Assembly (NCBI GenBank): GCA_947501005.1
Contig: CANMTU010000001.1
Span: 1,078,501-1,142,500, forward strand
Reading direction: 5' to 3'
Length of the DNA: 64,000 nucleotides
Source: an uncultured Erythrobacter sp.
GTDB taxonomy: Bacteria > Pseudomonadota > Alphaproteobacteria > Sphingomonadales > Sphingomonadaceae
The stretch's first letter is position 1; each line of letters begins with the position of its first letter. Shown here in pieces: positions 10,214 through 61,129 of the stretch. Under the pieces are notes generated by a model, which worked only from the letters and a program-made list of their open reading frames with translations, did not search any database and was not told the origin of the DNA. The position numbers were made by a program, and so were the translations under genes.

Positions 10214-11194
10214 ATGGTTATCGTTTGGCGGCAGCATCTTAGGGTGAATGCGATTACAGACAAGGGGGACGAAGGCCGGGCGTCCGGCGGGGGATGCATT
10301 CCCGGCGGCGGGGGACCGGCCTTCCTGTTCCTCGAATCCGCGCGCAATTCTCTGCCGGTCCTGATCGGCGCGCCCCATGGCGGCCGCCGCTATCCCGCCG
10401 CCATGCGCGAGACCATGCGGGGCGGGGACGCGACGCGCCTGCGGCTGGAAGACCGGCATATCGACACTCTCGTGCGCGAACTCGCCGCCGCAACCGGCGC
10501 CGCCTGCCTGCTGGCCGAGGCCCCGCGCGCCATGATCGATCTCAACCGGGCGAGCGACGATATCGATTGGTCGATGATTTCCGGCAAGCCGCGCACGAGC
10601 CTGCCCCCTCATTCGCTCGCCAACCGGCGCGCGCGCAGCGGGCTCGGCCTCATACCCCGCCGCCTGTCCGGTCTTGGCGAGATCTGGAAACAGCCCCTGT
10701 CCCATGCCGATCTGGAACGGCGGATCGCTGGCATCCACCGGCCGTATCACCAGAAACTGTCGCAGGAATTGATGCGCCTGCGCGACGAATGGGGCGCGGT
10801 CCTGCTGCTCGATGTCCATTCGATGCCGCCGCTGCGCAAACGCTATCCGGGGGAGGAGCCGGCTGATATCGTCGTCGGCGACCGGTTCGGCGCCAGCTGC
10901 GAGGCGGAGCTGTCCGCGCAGGCGCTGAGCTATCTGACCGAACAGGGTCGGCGCGTGGCCCACAACCGGCCCTATTCGGGCGGCTTCATTCTCGATTCGC
11001 ATACGGCGCCCGGGCGGGGCGTGCACGGGATTCAGATCGAAATCTGCCGCTCCCTCTACCTCGACGCCCAGTTCGATCAGCCGACCGCGCGGATGGGCGC
11101 GGTCGTCAAACTTCTTGCGGGGCTAGTGCGCGCGCTGGCGCAGCGCGTCGCCGATCTGGGTTCGGGGCAGAATTTGCCTCTCGCCGCGGAATAG
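10214..11194 (+). CDS. N-formylglutamate amidohydrolase family protein
   Basis: This is a metal-dependent hydrolase of the N-formylglutamate deformylase family, which releases formate and glutamate at the end of histidine degradation; related members act on other N-acyl amino acids. The fragments PVLIGAPHGGRRYP, LLLDVHSMPP, GGFILDSHTAPGRGVHGIQIE and LAEAPRAMIDLNRA carry the family His/Glu/Asp pattern. Length is 326 residues from the ATG; a GTG at 10244 would also serve as start. No other hut genes are nearby, so its role in histidine breakdown is uncertain. Confidence 0.85.
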   Translation: MVIVWRQHLRVNAITDKGDEGRASGGGCIPGGGGPAFLFLESARNSLPVLIGAPHGGRRYPAAMRETMRGGDATRLRLEDRHIDTLVRELAAATGAACLLAEAPRAMIDLNRASDDIDWSMISGKPRTSLPPHSLANRRARSGLGLIPRRLSGLGEIWKQPLSHADLERRIAGIHRPYHQKLSQELMRLRDEWGAVLLLDVHSMPPLRKRYPGEEPADIVVGDRFGASCEAELSAQALSYLTEQGRRVAHNRPYSGGFILDSHTAPGRGVHGIQIEICRSLYLDAQFDQPTARMGAVVKLLAGLVRALAQRVADLGSGQNLPLAAE

Positions 11195-59313: not shown

Positions 59314-59934
59314 TTACGGCCAATCGCCGGGCATCCACCGGGAACCAGACCGATCAGCAAGGGCACGGAGCCGATCAAGGTATAGCGTCTTCGCTTCAAA
59401 TTCCGCTTCGCGAAGTCGCCTCACGGTTTCGATCCGGTTGCGTCCTCGCGGGCGTGGCTGACCACCCGACCCGCACAGGCGGTTACGCAGCTTGGCGGTC
59501 TTGCGGCGGGCACGAGAAACATCATTCATGCTCTGCACTGCATAGCTGAGGTTTTGCGCCTCGCGCGAGCCGAACCGGCCTCCGGCGTAGTAGATCACTT
59601 CGCATCGCTGGCCCCTGACCGGACAGATGAAATAGCAACGATGCCCCCCGAACGGTGATGGCACCATTTCGACGGCAACATTCTGTTTGATGGCACCATC
59701 GGGCATTTCACCGGTGATCGCCACGATGCCGCCGCGTTCAATGTCGCTGAGATCGACACGCAGGCGCGTGCTGGCGGTGCTTAGGCCACCGATTGACCAG
59801 TGCAACGTGTCGATGATGCATTCGCCCGGTGCGACGATGCCCAGCCGCCGCAATGTGCGAATGTCGAGTGCCACCATTTCCTCGATGTTGCCGATATGCG
59901 CTGAGCGTCGCGCGCCCGATCCGATACCGCCCAT
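59314..59934 (-). CDS. Hypothetical protein of the MGGIGSG island type
   Basis: This is an unknown 206-residue protein. It starts MGGIGSGARRSAHIGNIEEM, a leader I associate with small proteins of mobile elements. Two cysteines pairs lie in CYFICPVRGQRCEVIYY, possibly a zinc site, and the Arg-rich end has LYLDRLRALADRSGSRW. The ATG at 59934 follows aggaggctttc, a strong binding site. It is divergent from the lipoprotein genes across the structured region. Confidence 0.72.
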   Translation of the reverse strand: MGGIGSGARRSAHIGNIEEMVALDIRTLRRLGIVAPGECIIDTLHWSIGGLSTASTRLRVDLSDIERGGIVAITGEMPDGAIKQNVAVEMVPSPFGGHRCYFICPVRGQRCEVIYYAGGRFGSREAQNLSYAVQSMNDVSRARRKTAKLRNRLCGSGGQPRPRGRNRIETVRRLREAEFEAKTLYLDRLRALADRSGSRWMPGDWP

Positions 59935-59968
59935 GAAAGCCTCCTGCGTTTCGGACGGCATCATACAT

Positions 59969-60009
59969 CCGGAGACGCCACATCTCAGGCCCGACCTCTG
60001 GGTCTCCGG
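59969..60009. promoter_or_regulatory. Hairpin CCGGAGAC / GTCTCCGG upstream of the 59934 start
   Basis: Perfect 8-base arms are separated by 25 bases, 35 bases before the ATG of the MGGIGSG gene. They could form an mRNA leader hairpin or a binding site. Confidence 0.5.
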
Positions 60010-60118
60010 ACGCCGGCTCTGCGTCTCTAAAGCTGGCAATTCAACGAAATACTGTGGTTTGGGGCAGGTCCATCAGCTTTCTGTTGAGTGAAAACGTCCA
60101 CTGTCCCATACAGCTATC

Positions 60119-60344
60119 GGAGCCGCCACGCACGGCTCTGGGGCGTAGTAACCCCGAAACACAGCGGTTGGGCTGCCCGACGTAGCCCGACACATCCTTG
60201 ACCCTATGGTCGGGGAGCCTGCGACGTATGTCCAGGGCTCCTCGAGCCTAAAGGTCGTAGGGACCGGCTGTGTTCGGTTTACTAACTCCCCGATCGCCAG
60301 GGCATGGTGTGAAGTCGAAGCGGGGGCGCACCGCGATCGACTTC
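60119..60344 (+). ncRNA. Candidate structured RNA with a pseudoknot
   Basis: The 423-base stretch between two divergent genes folds densely on the + strand. Local hairpins: 60119-60139, 60140-60155 (GGGG/CCCC), 60167-60191, 60218-60236 and 60311-60344 (GAAGTCGA/TCGACTTC). Two long-range helices cross: AACACAGC (60158-60165) with GCTGTGTT (60267-60274), and TCGGGGAG (60210-60217) with CTCCCCGA (60286-60293), extended by three pairs. Every wobble pair I found is G-U only on the + strand. It ends just before the ribosome binding site of the TTG-start lipoprotein gene, so it may be a leader or a separate RNA. Confidence 0.55.
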
Positions 60345-60357
60345 AGGGGGGCAGCTT

Positions 60358-60837
60358 TTGCTGAAGCAATCTTTATCGTTGGTGCTTGCGCTCGCCTGCT
60401 GCTCTTGCAACTCGCTGACCCACTCGTCGCAGTTTGCCGTTCGATGCTCCGGTAGCCAGACGCTCAAGATCAATGCGTTGGACGCACCGTCTCTCAGCAA
60501 GCAAGAGGGGCGAACCTATGTGATCGATGAAGGTCGTAAGACGCTCTATCGCGCCGATCCCTACATGGTCGCCAATCTCTGCGCGCTGAACGGCCGATGC
60601 GACGTTGATGTGACGCCCGGCAGAGCGACCGCGATCATGACGAATAGCTTCGGCACGGGCAGCAATCGCCAACAGCTCGAAACGCGCTTTGTCCTCGATC
60701 GGGCCAAGGGTGAGCTTCGCATCACCGAGGTTCGGACAATGTATCTCGACGACGATCCGAGCGATCCCATCACCACGGAGGGCTCTTTCACCTGCGCGTC
60801 CGTTCCAGTGCCCGATTTCAAAGTTCCAGAAGCCTGA
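60358..60837 (+). CDS. Hypothetical lipoprotein, TTG start
   Basis: The 159-residue product starts with TTG at 60358, seven bases after aggggggcag. The N-terminus MLKQSLSLVLALACCSC is a signal peptide with a lipobox-like ACCSC. Further cysteines are in AVRCSGSQ, NLCALNGRCDVDV and SFTCASV, so disulfides are likely. No family recognised. It is followed by a BamE-like lipoprotein gene 13 bases later. Confidence 0.7.
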   Translation: MLKQSLSLVLALACCSCNSLTHSSQFAVRCSGSQTLKINALDAPSLSKQEGRTYVIDEGRKTLYRADPYMVANLCALNGRCDVDVTPGRATAIMTNSFGTGSNRQQLETRFVLDRAKGELRITEVRTMYLDDDPSDPITTEGSFTCASVPVPDFKVPEA

Positions 60838-60850
60838 CAGGGGAATGACG

Positions 60851-61129
60851 ATGAAGCGCATACTTCCGATCGCGATCGCCGCGCTACTCGCCGGCTGCGT
60901 ATCGACTGGTACGAACTATGATCCTGCTGCCGTAGATCGGCTGCAAGTCGGCATGACCAAGGCTGAGGTCATCCGAATGCTTGGACAGCCCAATCAGGTC
61001 ATCGCATTGGCCGGCGGCGGCAAGAAGCTGATCTGGGTGCATTCGACCGGCTCGATGTTCGGCGCGAATGCCCGGTCGGTTGGATTGCCGTTTGATCGTG
61101 ATGGAAAGCTCAGCGACGTGCCTAACTAG
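60851..61129 (+). CDS. Small BamE/SmpA-like lipoprotein
   Basis: The 92-residue product starts at the ATG at 60851, seven bases after agggg. It has the lipobox LLAGC and the SmpA/OmlA-type repeat segment LQVGMTKAEVIRMLGQPNQV. The C-terminus is short and Ser/Gly-rich. Proteins of this fold are common in mobile elements as well as in outer-membrane assembly. It lies behind the 60358 lipoprotein gene. Confidence 0.8.
   Translation: MKRILPIAIAALLAGCVSTGTNYDPAAVDRLQVGMTKAEVIRMLGQPNQVIALAGGGKKLIWVHSTGSMFGANARSVGLPFDRDGKLSDVPN

Follow-up and report, generated by a model that had tools for sequence, protein, structure and literature searches.

A conserved, covarying pseudoknotted RNA upstream of mobile-element genes, likely an alphaproteobacterial branch of C4/sRNA-Xcc1-type leader RNAs

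Introduction

The closest described systems are the C4 antisense RNAs (RF01695, with the a1/b1 sites in RF03163) and sRNA-Xcc1 (RF02221). C4 is trimmed by RNase P to an RNA of ~77 nt. The phage P1 record is annotated in the order a1, b1, C4 RNA, a2, b2, icd-ant, and the antisense segments of C4 have complete matches in a1, a2 and b2 and a partial one in b1. How RNase P processes C4 and the C4-like RNAs of Acinetobacter has been described (PMC5320573). According to the passages of that paper considered here, the Group 1 C4-like sRNAs of Acinetobacter baumannii resemble the RNA of this study in being multi-copy and of C4 type, and reportedly arise from longer transcripts by processing, in most cases at a GGW motif; they differ in being defined by a match to the phage C4 motif and in belonging to one gammaproteobacterial genus, and the same passages contain no leader of conjugation regulators.

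Cloning and mapping showed sRNA-Xcc1 to be an RNA of 88 nt (PMC2996969). In integron cassettes of Xanthomonas, its place is upstream of symE (PMC12444791, 2025).

Here we analyze a candidate RNA in DNA from an uncultured Erythrobacter sp. (GCA_947501005.1, contig CANMTU010000001.1, positions 1,078,501 to 1,142,500); "the window" refers to this whole stretch of 64,000 nt. A preliminary description of this single sequence had proposed that a pseudoknotted + strand transcript, of no family that its author recognized, is encoded between two divergent genes. We find that a pseudoknotted RNA structure, conserved and supported by covariation, is present on the + strand of 60119-60344, and that its relatives immediately precede a variety of genes on plasmids, phages and genomic islands. 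Among leader-encoded antisense RNAs of the C4/sRNA-Xcc1 type, it likely represents an alphaproteobacterial branch, with a predicted role in controlling how the following gene is translated.

Results

The proposed local hairpins, two crossing helices and pseudoknot topology are all present in the sequence (Table 1). The upstream strand AACACAGC is the exact reverse complement of GCTGTGTT in the P8 loop, giving 8 pairs, and TGGTCGGGGAG pairs with CTCCCCGATCG to form P5, with 11 pairs including G-U at 60207/60296 and 60209/60294. As the 5′ strand of P5 lies inside the first crossing helix and its 3′ strand outside, the topology is that of a pseudoknot. P6 bears a conserved internal loop, ATGTCCAGG..CTAAAGG, which together with the AAC before P5 is among the strongly conserved unpaired motifs in the alignments of relatives.

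Table 1. Coordinates of the + strand leader and its downstream genes in the window
Feature	Position	Strand	Basis
Promoter-like pair: TTGAGT 60084-60089, 17 nt, CATACA 60107-60112	60084..60112	+	sequence reading; putative
Hairpin P1: 60119-60125 with 60133-60139	60119..60139	+	sequence; pairs not counted
Hairpin P2: 60140-60143 with 60152-60155	60140..60155	+	sequence
Upstream strand AACACAGC, pairs with P8 loop 60267-60274 (first crossing helix)	60158..60165	+	comparison
Hairpin P4: 60168-60174 with 60184-60190	60168..60190	+	column pairing counts
Alternative hairpin HA: 60195-60203 with 60208-60216; excludes P5	60195..60216	+	own-versus-cross test
P5: 60207-60217 with 60286-60296 (second crossing helix); closes the antisense-like core	60207..60296	+	column counts
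P6: 60218-60225 with 60254-60261 (CCTGCGAC/GTCGTAGG)	60218..60261	+	column counts
P7: 60236-60239 with 60245-60248	60236..60248	+	column counts
P8: 60263-60266 with 60275-60278; loop GCTGTGTT is the antisense-like loop	60263..60278	+	column counts
3′ hairpin: 60311-60318 with 60337-60344, with GCGGGGGCGCACCGC at 60320-60334	60311..60344	+	sequence pattern
Ribosome-binding-site-like AGGGGGG, complementary to CCCC of the P5 3′ strand	60345..60351	+	sequence
First downstream gene, lipoprotein-like, start TTG	60358..60837	+	reading frame
Second downstream gene, BamE-domain lipoprotein	60854..61129	+	Pfam

From the promoter-like pair, transcription would start near 60119; a stricter consensus scan reported no + strand promoter at 60084-60112. 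A TAT triplet stands about 12 nt before the first hairpin, at one of two neighboring positions, in 20 of 48 relatives, and the transcript may therefore begin with P1. The P1 loop contains an ACGC that is conserved in the alignments. The loop and 3′ side of P2 (AGTAACC, 60147-60153) are complementary to 60276-60283 (GGTTTACT) save for one extra T. No terminator-like site was found in the window between 59940 and 60400. We also considered an upstream reading frame in the window (ATGTCC.., with a stop after seven codons) and dropped it, as relatives with ATACAACAGG lack that ATG.

At the 3′ end, the hairpin pattern GCGGnGGCGnACCGC was found in 13 of 22 loci, or 12 distinct places with L001 and L002 counting as one; L008 and L016 carry the RNA and lack the pattern, and L059 and L061 carry variants of it. 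Hairpins with GCGGGGGCGnACCGC, whose flanking stem varies, separate the antisense-like core from the ribosome-binding site; they are frequent in the window's group of relatives and adjoin the RNA in L001-L007 and L017-L022. A relative of the second downstream gene lies directly 3′ of the RNA in L035 and, by DNA reading, in L004.

The wide distribution of this RNA did not feature in the preliminary description. A DNA search of 99 genomes gave matches in 13, including the window's own, six of the others at E<1e-5. Plasmid records with a match numbered 183 at E≤1e-5 and 334 at E≤1e-3. Agrobacterium (177) and Rhizobium (68) supplied most of the 334, of which 234 were typed as conjugative; one phage-labelled record matched. 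A covariance model built from 17 sequences (R1) occurred once in the window's own genome, in 43/149 genomes of the family, in 50/387 of the class, a single genome holding as many as 7 copies, and in 23/299 of the phylum, including 9 from other classes (own genome counted in each case). An exact-motif scan yielded at least 120 loci in named genomes and 38 viral contigs. By genus, we take the loci in named genomes to include Sphingomonadales, Hyphomicrobiales, Rhodobacterales, Caulobacterales and Rickettsiales. Also represented are Acidobacteria and, as two weak cases, one Desulfovibrio bin (33.9 bits) and one Pseudomonas putida contig (46.8 bits). Members outside Proteobacteria come from contigs titled Acidobacteria, Granulicella or Terriglobus (L095, L105, L106, L109, L111, L142, L155-L157 and L174). 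Since the 120 genome and 38 viral contigs were picked by an exact motif, they are biased with respect to the P6 loop and the strand before P5, and unbiased with respect to the pairing between the upstream strand and the P8 loop.

R1 matched the collected loci 246 times (65, 104 and 77), with 234 distinct matches. The 214 matches of at least 115 nt were thinned at about 80% identity to 135 in 132 loci, of which 95 were used as alignment input, mainly lower-scoring ones being omitted, to give 97 sequences. Some contigs carry close copies of the RNA in pairs (L073:1501-1638 and 1914-2057; L162:421-563 and 706-846; L225:7493-7634 and 10410-10552). In L049, L052, L099, L137 and L213 the match is confined to the P5-P8 part of the model (positions 62-146, or less), and the 5′ part may be different or lost there; L049 and L052 precede sigma-factor-like ORFs.

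Taken alone, the window sequence gives modest significance for the fold. The folding z-score was −5.07 on the + strand and −4.66 on the − strand, and crossing helices of at least 8 and at least 10 pairs arose in 64 of 400 dinucleotide-preserving shuffles of this GC-rich stretch.

Comparison over the 97 sequences is far more informative. Across 41 pairs (P4-P8 and the crossing helix), 92.3% of cells were paired compared to 67.6% after shuffling, the covariation measure was 0.590 compared to 0.187, and 35 pairs were changed on both sides compared to 31.0 (0/500 shuffles for each). Sliding the partners by 1-3 columns reduced pairing to 37-48%. We note that the alignment was fitted to P4-P8, so that the counts for these helices lean towards structure. 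The helix between the upstream strand and the P8 loop was not part of the search model, and its pairing in 79.6% of cells, with all four Watson-Crick types, is consequently not a fitting artefact. Both crossing helices are supported over the 97 relatives, which answers the covariation check proposed in the preliminary description.

Among the individual helices, P8 was paired in 98.7% of cells (4/4 pairs changed on both sides), P6 in 97.4% (8/8) and P7 in 93.5% (4/4). The main 10 pairs of P5 reached 97.5%, with 5 changed on both sides and 58.1% for the outermost pair, and the inner six of P4 reached 93.9%, with 6/6 changed and 64.0% for the outermost. P6, which is among the best-supported helices, had been overlooked in the preliminary description. 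Column-wise support for HA is weak (77.5% paired compared to 74.6% shuffled; 350/500 for changes on both sides).

A bias of G-U wobbles had earlier been taken to indicate a + strand transcript. All of the listed wobbles exist, although those at 60119/60139 and 60139/60156 are not simultaneously formable, because 60139 would be used in both the hairpin 60119-60125/60133-60139 and the hairpin 60139-60143/60152-60156. The strand argument is weak on one sequence and holds across relatives: 341 G-U cells compared to 77 A-C cells, in an alignment leaning towards structure, favor the + strand.

Pairing specific to each locus was assessed by permutation in three score groups (35, 41 and 19 of the 97 rows, with two rows dropped for short flanks), the window's group comprising scores of about 100 bits and above and the others being middle and low. 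The P8 loop paired better with its own upstream strand than with those of other loci in the window's group (own 17.27, cross 10.35) and in the other two (17.35/10.60 and 15.68/10.84), with 0/3000 permutations in each. This test depends little on the alignment and agrees with the column counts. The P8 3′ arm with its junction likewise preferred its own upstream segment, and HA was specific to its own locus (0/3000 in each of the three groups for both). Along with the covariation and the G-U bias, all of them comparative, these tests bear out the proposal of a real pseudoknotted structure on the + strand.

Towards the downstream sequence, the window's group gave no specific match for the P8 loop (1683/3000), the whole P8 region (1830/3000) or the P6 apical region (1088/3000). 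The P8 loop did match downstream in the middle (6/3000) and low (21/3000) groups. For the P5 3′ strand, the values were 161/3000 in the window's group, 0/3000 in the middle group and 27/3000 in the low group; the middle group shows a clear downstream fit of this C-rich strand, and the window's group a weak indication of one slightly above chance.

In all 18 plasmid records that we read, the next annotated CDS lies downstream on the same strand as the RNA, with its start at most 130 nt from the match in 16 (172 nt in L018 and 565 nt in L328). The next gene is annotated traM in 8 of the 18 (L019, L021, L024 (pTiC58), L027, L326, L329, L330 and L331); these records are not independent, as several represent traM loci of related plasmids. 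On conjugative plasmids, the RNA stands directly before traM in L024:4001-4500 (pTiC58), L019:8001-8509 and L027:4001-4482. In L026 the next gene encodes a DUF2285 protein opposite a helix-turn-helix gene, which is the arrangement of qseM/qseC. Among the matches listed, a gene was annotated under the match itself in 2 of 40 plasmid records.

We also scanned downstream ORFs with Pfam, taking for each locus the longest ORF of at least 50 aa starting within 220 nt, a rule that admits some spurious frames; 214 of 221 were scanned, 7 duplicates or doubtful cases being omitted. The matches included TraM (16), PF10074 (RovC_DNA-bd, which we take to be the former DUF2285; 12), sigma-70 region 4 (9), DUF5818 (5), GGDEF (5), ORF6N (4) and phage Rha (3). 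In all, 33 and 45 families were found among 105 and 109 ORFs, TraM being the commonest in each (11 and 5). Raw ORFs within 200 nt were present downstream in 176/214 loci compared to 125/214 at the upstream mirror position; this control is uninformative because GC-rich DNA is full of ORFs, and the leader position therefore rests on the annotated records.

The preliminary description had offered as options a leader of the TTG lipoprotein gene, an element-encoded small RNA, a ribozyme and a replication-control RNA. The leader is the best of these, because relatives lie just upstream of same-strand genes, and the ribozyme and replication-control readings were dropped, no supporting feature having been seen. 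As the window's group has no downstream match of the P8 loop, we infer control of the next (lipoprotein) gene as a prediction.

No Rfam family matched the RNA at its gathering score, in agreement with the earlier failure to recognize a known family; the window as a whole gives only a tRNA. The sole Rfam signal on the RNA is sRNA-Xcc1 (RF02221; 22.4 bits, E 0.2), below the gathering score of 53 bits, and the preliminary description made no link to it or to C4. The RF02221 model matched 8 of 20 relatives at E≤1 (0.0054-0.18, up to 37.6 bits), on the RNA and its strand, and missed the other 12; of four further loci it matched L026 on the RNA at 35.1 bits and, in a larger search, missed L002, L020 and L024. 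Reciprocally, R1 matched 6 of 20 RF02221 loci at E<1e-3 (7 hits), all at the RF02221 position and strand, as were 14 of its 15 hits at E≤10. RF02221 itself was found in 43/299 genomes of the phylum, above the cut-off in 31, and in 0/14 control genomes.

The RF02221 model spans the P5-P8 half only, and this P5-P6-P7-P8 core is common to both RNAs. Upstream of this core, RF02221 loci also have a P2-like hairpin followed by a strand able to pair with the P8 region, and the RNA likewise lies before a gene. In 58 RF02221 loci (of 60 hits fetched, unthinned and with several copies from single genomes), the P8 region matched its own upstream sequence (own 20.86, cross 17.61) and its own downstream sequence within 75 nt (18.14/15.78), often at the ribosome-binding site (0/5000 for each). 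In L282, for example, CTTATCAG stands upstream and CTTATCAGGAG before the start codon. These P8 complements at RF02221 loci (L263-L322) lie outside the Rfam model, and they give the loci the same layout as C4 RNA has in phage P1. Of ten downstream proteins hand-chosen from the 20 first loci, 9 matched Pfam: 2 SymE and 7 of phage antirepressor type (Bro-N, KilA-N, P22_AR_N, Rha), with one of the four Bro-N matches below the cut-off. Antirepressor-type genes, the target class of C4, are found downstream of both the R1 relatives and the RF02221 loci.

Several features set the window RNA apart from sRNA-Xcc1. It has hairpin P1, its group usually has the 3′ hairpin and has no detectable match of the P8 loop downstream, and its relatives, mainly in Alphaproteobacteria and Acidobacteria, head traM, DUF2285-type, ECF sigma and lipoprotein genes. 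Terminator-like T-runs occur in 39/60 RF02221 loci (up to 150 nt upstream of the core) compared to 5/97 here (model start to P5), the spans compared being different.

The likeness to C4 lies in the layout: a promoter, an upstream target copy, a stem-closed RNA with two inner hairpins, and a gene. The upstream strand of the window resembles the upstream target site of the phage P1 C4 RNA, and, as C4 antisense segments are complementary to the upstream copy, here the P8 loop is specific to its own upstream strand (0/3000). UAU/GG stands at the start of the closing stem in both P1 and the window; TAT precedes P5 in 20/97 relatives here and in 10/60 RF02221 loci. Antirepressor types among the downstream genes are a further likeness. 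In contrast, downstream sites of the a2/b2 type, which in C4 systems overlap the first gene's ribosome-binding site, were not detected in the window's group, and the covariance models gave no match in either direction with C4 of phages P1/P7: RF01695 did not match the window, and R1 did not detect C4 in the phage P1 stretches.

Sequence comparison thus establishes how the RNA folds, which strand is favored, that the P8 loop pairs over a long range with the upstream strand, that the RNA stands before genes, and that its layout is common to sRNA-Xcc1 loci. We do not claim membership in RF02221 or RF01695.

Discussion

This widespread leader RNA of mobile elements is real, and it is best read as being of the C4/sRNA-Xcc1 kind; that it works like them is likely from the likenesses given above. 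We propose that transcription of the leader would begin at a promoter immediately 5′ of P1. The P5-P6-P7-P8 core would be the antisense unit and, like C4, might be released by RNase P, here at the UAU/GGU that precedes P5. By mimicking a target, the upstream strand would hold on to the P8 loop; ribosome access to the first gene would change when this loop is freed or when P5 gives way to HA. The P8 region of sRNA-Xcc1 loci often matches the ribosome-binding region directly; for the window's branch, the likeliest contact may be that of the C-rich P5 3′ strand with the G-rich ribosome-binding site, at which the permutation values faintly hint.

Among the alternatives, we consider an orphan riboswitch unlikely. 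In such an RNA, the P6 internal loop and the junctions would form a small-molecule pocket, and the choice between P5 and HA would decide whether the ribosome-binding site is free. The strongly conserved unpaired motifs (ATGTCCAGG..CTAAAGG and the AAC before P5) would suit it, as would the mutual exclusion of P5 and a locus-specific HA, the specific match that the P5 3′ strand finds downstream in loci of the middle group (0/3000), and the GGDEF, ECF sigma and chemotaxis genes found downstream. However, we saw no pathway common to the downstream genes (TraM, DUF2285-type, lipoproteins, antirepressors, restriction-like nucleases), which would be unusual if the RNA sensed a metabolite; a loop that varies and is specific to its locus is typical of antisense pairing, and RF02221 loci show P8-region matches to the downstream sequence.

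Less probable again is a trans-acting small RNA, with the core cut out, its loop pairing with distant mRNAs and its proximity to genes due to joint transport on mobile DNA. The same-strand next CDS in 18/18 records (16 within 130 nt), the lack of a terminator-like site at 59940-60400 in the window and the upstream complementary strand kept in all three groups tested weigh against it, although sRNA-Xcc1 was mapped as an 88-nt RNA, has reportedly been termed trans-acting in one paper's title, and the window's group shows no downstream match of the loop.

We give almost no credence to an element that works through hairpins in the DNA itself, be it a transfer origin, a recombination site or a single-stranded promoter: its plasmid carriers are mostly conjugative (234/334 records), yet G-U cells outnumber A-C cells (341 to 77, in the structure-leaning alignment) and, in the annotated records, a CDS follows at once on one strand. 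Chance folding of GC-rich intergenic DNA, for which the 64/400 shuffles with crossing helices this large and the nearly equal stability of the − strand would speak, is refuted by the covariation, and the own-versus-cross tests also stand against it.

On the preferred reading, as a C4/sRNA-Xcc1-type leader, the RNA suggests that a longer leader contains sRNA-Xcc1, which is known as a small RNA, and gives one explanation for RNAs found before antirepressors, symE, traM and sigma factors. TraM is a brake on the conjugation of Ti-type plasmids. The DUF2285 protein QseM is such a brake for symbiosis islands (PMC10359603). A conserved RNA of about 200 nt before traM (pTiC58) and before a DUF2285 gene would add a layer of conjugation control. 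We found no description of a traM leader RNA or riboswitch of this kind in the portion of the open-access literature searched, nor of such a leader in the passages considered of PMC6341043, PMC10359603, PMC11109978, PMC8632094 and PMC3927594.

More speculatively, P1 C4 RNA, integron sRNA-Xcc1 and the window RNA might form one ancient class of self-targeting leader RNAs, a common arming switch of mobile elements in Proteobacteria and Acidobacteria. On Ti plasmids and symbiosis-type conjugative elements, this would amount to an unnoticed RNA layer of quorum-sensing control that sets the dose of the anti-activators TraM and QseM, with the window's branch acting as a two-state cis switch (P5 versus HA) and not by pairing of the loop with the ribosome-binding site. 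We offer this wider scheme tentatively, and regard it as somewhat more doubtful than not.

The window element also encodes a tyrosine integrase, AlpA, RepB-primase and AAA proteins. The divergent neighbor (59317-59934, − strand) encodes 206 aa with a CPVRGQRC stretch and has no Pfam match. Near one RF02221 locus, two TwoAYGGAY RNA matches above the gathering score were observed (L276:2372-2494 and 2791-2857).
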